Origin: Candidatus Zixiibacteriota bacterium
GTDB lineage: Bacteria > Zixibacteria > MSB-5A5 > GN15 > FEB-12
Direction of reading: 5' to 3'
DNA length: 64,000 bases
NCBI GenBank assembly: GCA_024280215.1
Contig: JAJRQO010000032.1
Coordinates: 62,001 to 126,000, forward strand
Positions 35,186-37,951 of this stretch are shown here, piece by piece. Below the pieces are notes generated by a model. That model ran no database searches, was not told where the DNA came from, and was given only the letters and a program-made list of their open reading frames with translations. A program made the position numbers and the translations under genes. Every line of letters starts with the position of its first letter. Position 1 is the stretch's first letter.

Positions 35186-35509
35186 ATGAGTACACCTCTT
35201 AATATTACAGATGCTGAATTTGAAAAAGAAGTACTGCAATCAGATGTTCCTGTTGTAGTAGATTTTTGGGCTACATGGTGTGGACCTTGTAAAATGATTG
35301 CCCCGATTTTGGAAGAGATTGCTGGTGAATTTGCTGACAAAGTAAAAATTGTAAAAATCGACGTTGATTCCAACAGTGCTACTGCTGCTAAACACAATAT
35401 TATGTCGATTCCATCACTTTTGTTTTTCAAAAATGGTGAAGTTGTTGACCAAGTGGTCGGAGCTATTCCAAAAGCACAGTTAACAGAACGTATTAACAAA
35501 ATCGCTTAA
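35186..35509 (+). CDS. trxA: Thioredoxin
   Basis: This is the cytoplasmic disulfide reductase. The active site 'ATWCGPCK' has Cys32 and Cys35, with the conserved cis-proline loop 'IMSIPSLLFFKNG' and the closing 'GAIPKAQL'. At 107 residues it is a standard single-domain Trx. A clear ribosome-binding site 'GGAGA' is at 35174. It is followed by its own terminator, so it should not be cotranscribed with the candidate selenoprotein downstream, although their neighbourhood may be meaningful. Confidence 0.97.
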   Translation: MSTPLNITDAEFEKEVLQSDVPVVVDFWATWCGPCKMIAPILEEIAGEFADKVKIVKIDVDSNSATAAKHNIMSIPSLLFFKNGEVVDQVVGAIPKAQLTERINKIA

Positions 35510-35533
35510 TTTGTTTTTAATAAGTATTTATGG

Positions 35534-35557
35534 AAAACCGGTGGAAACCGGTTTTTC
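35534..35557 (+). terminator. Terminator of trxA
   Basis: Perfect stem AAAACCGG / CCGGTTTT with loop TGGAAA, then TTCTTTT. The stem is identical to the terminator at 8403. Confidence 0.85.
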
Positions 35558-35658
35558 TTTTATTTGAAATTATAGTTGAACATCTCGCTTGTATTACTGT
35601 TATATTGATTGTAAGTGAAGATATGTAACTTTAATGCTAACTTTTTTAAGGAAATAAC

Positions 35659-35856
35659 ATGGATTTATATGATATTCTTTCAGTCATTGTTTTTATAGCA
35701 ATTTGGCTGTTTTTAGTAACAAAAGTATTTCCAAGGTTTGGAATTCATTCCTGAGCGACTGCACCTTGTGATCTCCCGGCGGGAGATAAGAAAAAAGAAG
35801 TAAAAGAAGTTCAAATTGAAAAATCAGATGATTCTAATGATTTCAATAAACCATAA
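35659..35856 (+). CDS. Candidate small membrane selenoprotein (in-frame UGA at codon 32)
   Basis: The gene has an ATG with ribosome-binding site 'AAGGAA' at 35648 (5-6 base spacing) and a 65-codon frame ending in TAA, interrupted only by UGA at 35752-35754. Read as selenocysteine (U), the product has a short acidic N-terminus ('MDLYD') and one membrane helix ('ILSVIVFIAIWLFLV'). Then come 'TKVFPRFGIHS', U32, 'ATAPC' (Cys37) and a Lys/Glu/Asp-rich tail ending 'DFNKP'. A hairpin begins 16 bases after the UGA and has the layout of a bacterial SECIS element. A U-x4-C pair next to the membrane suggests a redox function, perhaps with the neighbouring thioredoxin. I cannot match it to a named selenoprotein family. 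The alternative is a 31-residue peptide followed by chance open frame, or a nonsense mutation of a Trp or Cys codon. Confidence 0.65.
35752..35790 (+). other. Candidate bacterial SECIS element
   Basis: UGA (35752-35754) is followed by a 7-bp perfect stem ATCTCCC (35771-35777) / GGGAGAT (35781-35787) closing a GGC loop. The loop starts 23 bases after the UGA and its first base is G, both within what is known of bacterial SECIS structures. The stem can extend by CTT/AAG across a 3-base bulge. The element is G+C-rich in an AT-rich surrounding. It lacks a T tract on either strand, so it is not a simple terminator. Confidence 0.6.
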
Positions 35857-35908: not shown

Positions 35909-36739
35909 ATGAGCTATTATCAACAAAATTCAGGTTTTAGGCGTCCTGGTTTCCAGTTTGGACCAGGTGCTTTATCGCCATTTATCAAAACCATAATGAT
36001 AGTTAATTTTGTGCTGTTTGTGATGCAGCAGGATTATCTGTTCCCAGCGATGACGCAAATATTTGCCTTGACCCCTCAAACATTTTTCAGAGAATTTCCT
36101 AATCATCTGTTTCAGCCGTTTACTTACATGTTTTTACATGGTGGTTTTGGGCATATCTTCTTTAATATGTTAATGCTCTGGATGTTTGGGACTGAAATTG
36201 AACTTAGATGGGGAACGAAAAAATTTGCTCGGTTTTACCTTTTAGGTGGGCTTGCTGGAGCGATTTTGACTCTTGTTGTGAAATCATCACAGATTGCTCC
36301 TATGGTCGGTGCCTCTGCGGCGATATATTCGGTGATGGTGGCATACTGGTTTATGTTTCCAAACAGACAATTATATATTATGATGGTTTTGCCAGTTCAG
36401 GTGAAATGGGCTATCCCGGGGATAATGGTGATAGGGCTACTCTTTGGTGGAGCTAATGTTGCTCACTTTGCCCATTTGGGTGGAGCATTGTTTGGCTTTT
36501 TATATATGAAATCTGACTTTAGTATGTTATCATTATCACGAAAATTCAAAGAGAGAAAACAGAAAAAGCAGGAAGCGAAGCTTGAAGCAAATCGCAAAAA
36601 TGCTGAACGAGTTATGAAGTCCGTTGATGAGGTCTTAGACCGTATTAACGAAGTAGGGTTTGAAAATCTTACTAAAGAAGAACGTAAAATTTTAAATGAT
36701 GCCTCAAATGGTCTTTCTAATAAAGATCAGATGAAATAG
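35909..36739 (+). CDS. Rhomboid-family intramembrane serine protease
   Basis: It cleaves transmembrane substrates within the inner membrane. A conserved 'HGGFGHIFFNM' lies in helix 2, the catalytic serine is in 'VGASAAIYS' (about Ser136), and the histidine is in 'AHFAHLGG' (about His189). Six helices are visible, followed by a charged coiled tail of about 80 residues ('FKERKQKKQEAKLEANRK') ending in a small helical segment 'LTKEERKILNDAS', as found in many rhomboids of this type. The catalytic pair is intact. The start ATG has only a weak ribosome-binding site. The gene lies 52 bases after the candidate selenoprotein and may be cotranscribed with it. Confidence 0.93.
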   Translation: MSYYQQNSGFRRPGFQFGPGALSPFIKTIMIVNFVLFVMQQDYLFPAMTQIFALTPQTFFREFPNHLFQPFTYMFLHGGFGHIFFNMLMLWMFGTEIELRWGTKKFARFYLLGGLAGAILTLVVKSSQIAPMVGASAAIYSVMVAYWFMFPNRQLYIMMVLPVQVKWAIPGIMVIGLLFGGANVAHFAHLGGALFGFLYMKSDFSMLSLSRKFKERKQKKQEAKLEANRKNAERVMKSVDEVLDRINEVGFENLTKEERKILNDASNGLSNKDQMK

Positions 36740-36757: not shown

Positions 36758-37951
36758 ATGCCAAAGAGAATTTTACTTGCTGAAGAATCTGATACGATTA
36801 GAAAAATTGCCGAATCGCTGCTGAGACAAAACGGATTCGAGGTACTTTCTATGACAACTGGTACAAAAGCTCTCGAGGTCTTACAGTTTACTTCTCCCGA
36901 TTTAATCCTTGTCGCTTTTGATATGAACTTTAAAGGTGATACTTCACTTTTTGACAAACTACGGTCTGATACGAAATTGTCATTAGTGCCTCTTGTATTA
37001 CTTGCCAATGAATCAGAACAAAATCTTCCTTTACCAGACGAATCGGTCATTAGGAAACCATTTGACCCAAAGGAATTTATCAAAAAAGTTAATTTGTTTA
37101 CAGGTCAATCACAGTCTTCACAGTCGAACCCACTATCTACTTCTACCGTGGAAGATGATTTCTTAGACGCTGCTTTAGGACTCGACCAGTTAGATGTTAC
37201 CGATTCTGAAATATTAGGTAATGCTACCTCTGGTAAAATCAAAGTCACTCAAAATCATGACAATATGATGGGCTATGAGCATAAAGATGAGACCAATAAT
37301 GGTTCTTCTGATTCAGGTAAAGTCGAATCTCTGATGATTACCGATGATGATGTAACTAATATAAGGCATACGAGCCACAATTCGCCAACTTCTCCTAAAT
37401 ATTCGTCAGGTACAGGCAAACTTGAGATATTAGATGACCAGTTTGGGATAGGAAATCAGGATATAGGTCAACAGAAAAATGAAAATGCTGACCATGACTA
37501 TAATTGGTTTCTTGATGAACTGTCTAATGATAATAACGACAATGCTCAAGCTCCTCAGCAAACTCAATCAAAAAATTTACAAGATTCGGGTTCATTGGCT
37601 TTTGAAGAGACATCATCGTTTGTCGATCCTGTGACCCCAGCAAACCCTGTAGAAAATTCATCATCAGTTGATAAATTTATTGATGAGTTCAAAAAAGAAG
37701 TTGAAAAATTTGGCTCGGATGAACCTGAGTCAATTACTATAAAAGAAACCGAACAAAAATTTTCCGAATCTGGTTCAGTATTACAATGGACTGACTCAAG
37801 TGAGAAAATCACACCTCAGCAAGTTCAACTTTTCAAAAAGGAATTTGTACAGGAATTAGCAGAAAAAATAGCTACCAAGATTGCTGATAAAATTGATGCG
37901 GACAAATTATTACAACTGATAAATCAAGAAATTAGAAAAAAATCAAAATAA
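36758..37951 (+). CDS. Receiver-like protein with degenerate phosphorylation site and long acidic tail
   Basis: Residues 3-115 have the CheY fold ('RILLAEESDTIRKIAESLL', 'VIRKPFDPKEF' with the conserved Lys). In the segment 'PDLILVAFDM' the position of the phospho-acceptor aspartate is alanine (Ala53), with an aspartate two positions later. Phosphorylation in the normal way is therefore doubtful. About 220 residues of low-complexity Asp/Asn/Ser/Gln sequence follow, then a C-terminal helix pair ('FVQELAEKIATKIADKI') that looks like an interaction or oligomerisation module. It starts 18 bases after the rhomboid gene. The output is unknown. Confidence 0.75.
   Translation: MPKRILLAEESDTIRKIAESLLRQNGFEVLSMTTGTKALEVLQFTSPDLILVAFDMNFKGDTSLFDKLRSDTKLSLVPLVLLANESEQNLPLPDESVIRKPFDPKEFIKKVNLFTGQSQSSQSNPLSTSTVEDDFLDAALGLDQLDVTDSEILGNATSGKIKVTQNHDNMMGYEHKDETNNGSSDSGKVESLMITDDDVTNIRHTSHNSPTSPKYSSGTGKLEILDDQFGIGNQDIGQQKNENADHDYNWFLDELSNDNNDNAQAPQQTQSKNLQDSGSLAFEETSSFVDPVTPANPVENSSSVDKFIDEFKKEVEKFGSDEPESITIKETEQKFSESGSVLQWTDSSEKITPQQVQLFKKEFVQELAEKIATKIADKIDADKLLQLINQEIRKKSK

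Follow-up and report, generated by a model that had tools for sequence, protein, structure and literature searches.

In bacterial selenoproteins that depend on SelB and a selenocysteine insertion sequence (SECIS), an in-frame UGA is followed, within the coding region, by a hairpin with G in its loop, and the genome carries sel genes. The published rule describes a loop of 3 to 9 nt on a stem of 4 to 16 bp, with G in the first two loop positions, a distance of 16 to 37 nt from the UGA and an MFE of at most -7.5 (PMC13188914). Nearly all selenoproteins possess Cys homologs (PMC13188914), and the hypothetical selenoprotein families of the GOS and Sargasso collections were defined using such homologs (PMC2398784, PMC1088965); Sec/Cys pairing is a usual sign of a bacterial selenoprotein, not a defining one. 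SELENOK and SELENOS, which are the closest functional likeness to the protein described here, have one N-terminal transmembrane helix in type III orientation, a Sec in an unstructured cytosolic tail, and no thioredoxin fold (PMC10650576).

We analyzed a stretch of 64,000 nucleotides from a Candidatus Zixiibacteriota bacterium (the window), in which a first-pass annotation had proposed a small membrane selenoprotein gene. All the elements it had listed, namely, a start with a ribosome-binding site, a membrane helix, a UGA at codon 32, 33 open codons beyond it and a closing TAA, were confirmed in the sequence, as was a hairpin, ATCTCCC-GGC-GGGAGAT, beginning 16 nt past the UGA with its loop 23 nt past it (Table 1). 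The gene shares with known bacterial selenoproteins the in-frame UGA, the coding-region hairpin with a loop G and the accompanying sel genes, and it almost certainly yields a full-length protein through predicted insertion of selenocysteine at its UGA.

Table 1. Features of the predicted selenoprotein locus (window coordinates)
Feature	Position	Strand	Basis or remark
trxA, thioredoxin (WCGPC), conserved upstream neighbor	35186..35509	+	Pfam PF00085; synteny
Terminator-like hairpin between trxA and selenoprotein gene	35532..35557	+	Consensus scan, 0.3 expected for region
Shine-Dalgarno-like AAGGA	35648..35652	+	6 nt 5' of ATG; sequence
Predicted selenoprotein gene	35659..35856	+	65 aa, Sec at codon 32, TAA stop; homologs with TGA at same column
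Transmembrane helix codons (residues 6-24), predicted Nout-Cin	35674..35730	+	Hydropathy and flank charges
UGA, predicted to be read as selenocysteine	35752..35754	+	Invariant column in alignments A1 and A5; TGA in all inspected members except one possibly degenerate copy
Bacterial SECIS-type hairpin, 7 bp, loop GGC	35771..35787	+	Position, loop-G rule, covariation
Rhomboid protease, conserved downstream neighbor in Zixibacteria	35909..36739	+	Pfam PF01694; synteny
Response-regulator-like protein behind rhomboid gene, conserved in Zixibacteria	36758-37951		Only receiver domain recognized

The complete selenium machinery was found in the same genome (G000; 3.03 Mb, 96% complete). One contig, C40, carries selA (532 bits), selB directly after it (322 bits) and the tRNA-Sec gene selC (63.7 bits; anticodon UCA by ARAGORN), and selD (372 bits) lies on contig C39. 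This selD (L130, G000:C39:48581-49501) also encodes a selenoprotein (SCAGU): an in-frame TGA stands at its active-site position, and 20 nt downstream there is a hairpin whose loop is 3 nt long (GUU). It provides an internal control indicating that UGA is decoded as Sec in this organism by means of the same kind of element. Among carriers of the family, SelB scored above the cut-off in 31 of the 32 genomes tested and in 27 of 27 high-quality ones, the sole SelB-negative carrier being an 89% complete draft. Some SelB-bearing Zixibacteria genomes had no detected family member; many of these are fragmented drafts.

A read-through search with the 65-aa query returned relatives from most of the genera in the order, every one of these relatives containing an internal TGA. 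Homologs conserved past the UGA, which the first-pass annotation had called for, were found in about 100 genomes, and none of those inspected ends at the UGA. With the profile of alignment A1 (57 members), the family was present in 64 of the 132 genomes of the class and phylum (E<=1e-4); outside the phylum, 24 genomes were found with A1 and about 40 with the broader alignment A5 (386 genomes per search), spread over almost as many families as genomes. The distribution is therefore not local and covers at least three phyla: Zixibacteria, the phylum of G235 and G371, represented in the collection searched by those two genomes alone, and others. A patterned contig scan with a 13-row subset of the alignment gave 11 loci, several of them from Candidatus Zixiibacteriota. 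One genome, G483, harbors two copies (L206 and L207), the second lying between DUF302 and OsmC genes.

Every member read individually, with one exception, has TGA at the Sec column, and neither TAA nor TAG replaces it in any inspected member. The exception, G376 (L196), carries CGA (Arg) where the Sec codon would be, and its short tail likewise points to degeneration; it is possibly a decaying copy. In G137, first listed without a stop, the UGA is present just beyond the matched stretch. The frame stays open for at least 17 codons past the UGA in 107 of 108 relatives, compared to 116 of 189 control TGAs that end ORFs; openness is thus informative only because it is kept in nearly every relative. 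At least 14 codons follow the Sec in every member. Of the orthologs aligned at codon 32 that the first-pass annotation proposed to look for, UGA-containing ones were found and Cys-containing ones were not: no Cys homolog was detected in roughly 500 genomes with profiles that carry Cys at the Sec column, against which Cys orthologs would have scored best.

We then examined the hairpin in its own right. With its 3-nt GGC loop, 7-bp stem, distance of 23 nt and folding energy of -10.6 kcal/mol for 45 nt, the hairpin of the window agrees with the bacterial rule. Taken as a single sequence, however, it is not unusual by shuffling (z of -1.1), and an Rfam search of the window at gathering thresholds gave no match. 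Across relatives, by contrast, it lies far outside what chance would give. G occurs within the first two loop positions in 104 of 108 relatives, but at only 78 of the 188 control sites, which follow TGAs that end ORFs, and the loop sits at +22/+23 in 66 of 108 relatives versus 10 of 188 controls. Under synonymous recoding, the loop-G rule would be expected to hold in 29 of 57 sequences and holds in 50; downstream of the UGA, folding energy is likewise below that of the recodings (mean z of -1.12, versus -0.21 for an upstream control). Among 37 members, drawn from the family to which the window gene belongs and from equally spaced relatives, 92% of the cells of the 7-bp stem are paired and both sides have changed at six of seven pairs. 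The covariation score is 0.494, whereas shuffles give 0.223 (sd 0.022) and slid partners 0.05 to 0.17. Family f4 gave the same covariation picture with a 5-bp stem and an AGUU loop. The hairpin site codes for DLPEGD in f1 and for DVQLDK in f4. In f2 (L036, L057, L067, L069 and L073), the hairpin lies 35 to 38 nt past the UGA, at or slightly past the usual range and in this respect different from known bacterial selenoproteins, and codes for APEEP. That the same hairpin overlies different amino acids in these three families indicates selection on the RNA rather than on the protein. As far as sequence comparison can establish it, the SECIS is proven by these comparative tests and not by single-sequence folding.

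These results bear on the simplest alternative, namely, that the UGA is an ordinary stop, in which case the gene would yield a membrane peptide of 31 aa and the frame beyond it would be a relic or go untranslated. A UGA would indeed terminate translation without SelB, and the unremarkable shuffling result for the single hairpin fits this alternative, but we give it almost no credence, since the frame is kept open in nearly all relatives, TAA and TAG never substitute, two genomes fuse the frame to thioredoxin (see below), the SECIS covaries and the family co-occurs with SelB. Comparison among genomes thus supports predicted Sec insertion, the putative SECIS and the conservation of the family, in line with the first-pass proposal of Sec at codon 32, which withstood each of the refuting conditions that it had set.

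The encoded protein is predicted to span the membrane once with its N terminus outside and its C terminus inside. Residues 6 to 24 have a mean Kyte-Doolittle hydropathy of 2.64, over 89 members the flank preceding the helix has a charge of -1.0 and the one following it +1.9, and the C-terminal side is the more positive one in 83 of the 89; the single helix and a putatively disordered cytosolic tail are both read from hydropathy and charge. Pro25 and Sec32 are invariant in A1 and A5, and Gly28 and Trp16 are nearly so within Zixibacteria. The U-x4-C redox pair that had been proposed from the window is not general, since 53 of 89 members have the Cys at U+5 and 15 of the 89 have no Cys at all; Sec alone must therefore suffice. 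An intramolecular selenenylsulfide can presumably form in many members but would not be required.

We next considered the genomic context. The position beside a thioredoxin gene, already pointed out by the first-pass annotation, turned out to be conserved: trxA adjoins the selenoprotein gene in nearly all Zixibacteria carriers examined and lies upstream of it in four families. In f1, f2 and f4, trxA is followed by the selenoprotein gene, from which CoA_binding_2 separates it in f2 and f4; the rhomboid gene and the response-regulator-like gene come next, and then DsbD in the window, G019 and G004. In f17, trxA and CoA_binding_2 lie upstream and the rhomboid gene is absent. CoA_binding_2 (PF13380) was seen between trxA and the selenoprotein gene at L156, L164, L025, L028 and L031 (f2, f4 and f17). 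In the window genome, the terminator-like hairpin suggests that trxA and the selenoprotein gene may lack a common transcript. Outside the phylum, 8 of 43 loci have a thioredoxin (E<1e-30) at a distance of no more than about 2.5 kb: directly upstream with a gap of 3 nt (L138), directly downstream (L146), within about 1.2 kb (L134, L136 and L213, the first two clustered with ArsR) or 2.2 kb away (L148). At the other two of these eight, each in a different genome, the Sec-containing membrane segment and a thioredoxin domain C-terminal to it form a single in-frame fusion (L201, 176 aa, WCAPC; L202, 212 aa, WCGPC).

On the basis of this context, we consider it likely that the UGA is decoded as Sec and that the product is a membrane selenol in Nout-Cin orientation acting as a surface reductant recycled by thioredoxin. 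SelB and tRNA-Sec would decode codon 32, directed by the SECIS loop 23 nt downstream. The single-pass product would then carry one selenol at the end of the helix, at the cytoplasmic face; the tail beyond it would be short, charged and probably disordered. From chemistry and context, we infer that this selenol could reduce peroxides, disulfides or sulfane sulfur (persulfides) at the membrane surface. The Nout-Cin topology would place it on the same side as cytoplasmic thioredoxin, encoded nearby in most members and fused in two genomes, which would re-reduce it; direct reduction of this kind would serve all members, with or without a Cys at U+5. Topology, partnership and redox role are predictions. 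Counting against this reading are the linkage of thioredoxin at some but not all loci outside the phylum, the terminator-like hairpin after trxA in the window genome and the third of members without a Cys at U+5.

The selenol might instead carry sulfane sulfur or selenium, or bind a soft metal, at the membrane, the protein being a selenoprotein that thioredoxin does not recycle. Outside Zixibacteria, OsmC is found near L148, L159 and L207, DUF302 near L152 and L207, ArsR-type regulators near L134, L136, L146 and L197, and RND efflux pumps near L199, L200 and L203, rubrerythrin being a further neighbor; a single conserved Sec without a resolving Cys in the members devoid of Cys would also suit such a carrier. 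These neighbors are diverse, however, and thioredoxin recurs more widely than any of them, so that together with the in-frame fusions and the recurrent trxA adjacency they make a carrier function unlikely. The rhomboid gene raises another possibility. Single-pass proteins of Nout-Cin topology are typical rhomboid substrates, and the neighboring protease could set the level of the selenoprotein or release it from the membrane, as would be compatible with the predicted topology and with the rhomboid gene lying directly downstream in nearly all Zixibacteria carriers examined. A BLAST search with the rhomboid of the window, however, found no adjacent rhomboid at the loci outside Zixibacteria or at those of f13 and f17, and we regard this explanation as highly improbable.

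We also compared the family to described ones. Unlike nearly all known selenoproteins, it is an apparently new family for which no Cys homologs were found. No Pfam or NCBIfam model matched the protein or the family when all members were scanned, and searches of members and alignments against Pfam, NCBIfam and solved structures for a known domain or fold returned noise only. Among the 119 prokaryotic selenoprotein families inventoried in 2026, none is of this kind by name and motif (PMC13188914), and the NCBIfam models of that inventory gave no match. The family is thus apparently undescribed, as judged from open-access papers, and an earlier account elsewhere is possible. As for SELENOK and SELENOS, neither homology nor membership is claimed: the Sec of the new family adjoins the membrane and not the C terminus, no member has it second or third from the C-terminal end, the Gly-rich segment is missing and the SECIS is bacterial. 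With thioredoxin and thioredoxin-fold selenoproteins (UxxC), the family shares the redox context and, in two members, a fused thioredoxin domain, but its Sec lies outside that fold, in the membrane segment, and the fused thioredoxins retain their own CxxC. The FeoB-associated Cys-rich membrane protein (PF12669) is also small and single pass, its helix being followed by a chalcogen residue; weak matches occurred in 5 of 57 members (best E of 0.1), not significant and below the curated cut-off, the Cys cluster is lacking, and no FeoB was recognized among the adjoining genes examined, so that membership was rejected.

More tentatively, these genes may constitute a pan-bacterial, Sec-only family of single-pass proteins, a functional counterpart of SELENOK and SELENOS that couples cytoplasmic thioredoxin to the reduction of peroxides or persulfides at the membrane and in which Cys is unable to substitute; we hold this to be quite possible but stop short of calling it probable. 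Such a family would have been missed because discovery methods depend on the existence of Cys homologs and because ORF callers treat UGA as the end of a gene. If this is true, a widespread family with an architecture absent from the 2026 inventory would be added to the bacterial selenoproteome, surveys based on Sec/Cys pairs would be overlooking Sec-only families, and there would be a testable case of sulfur seemingly unable to stand in for selenium, with the thioredoxin fusions providing a direct handle on function. It would also offer a reason why many uncultured lineages retain the Sec trait.
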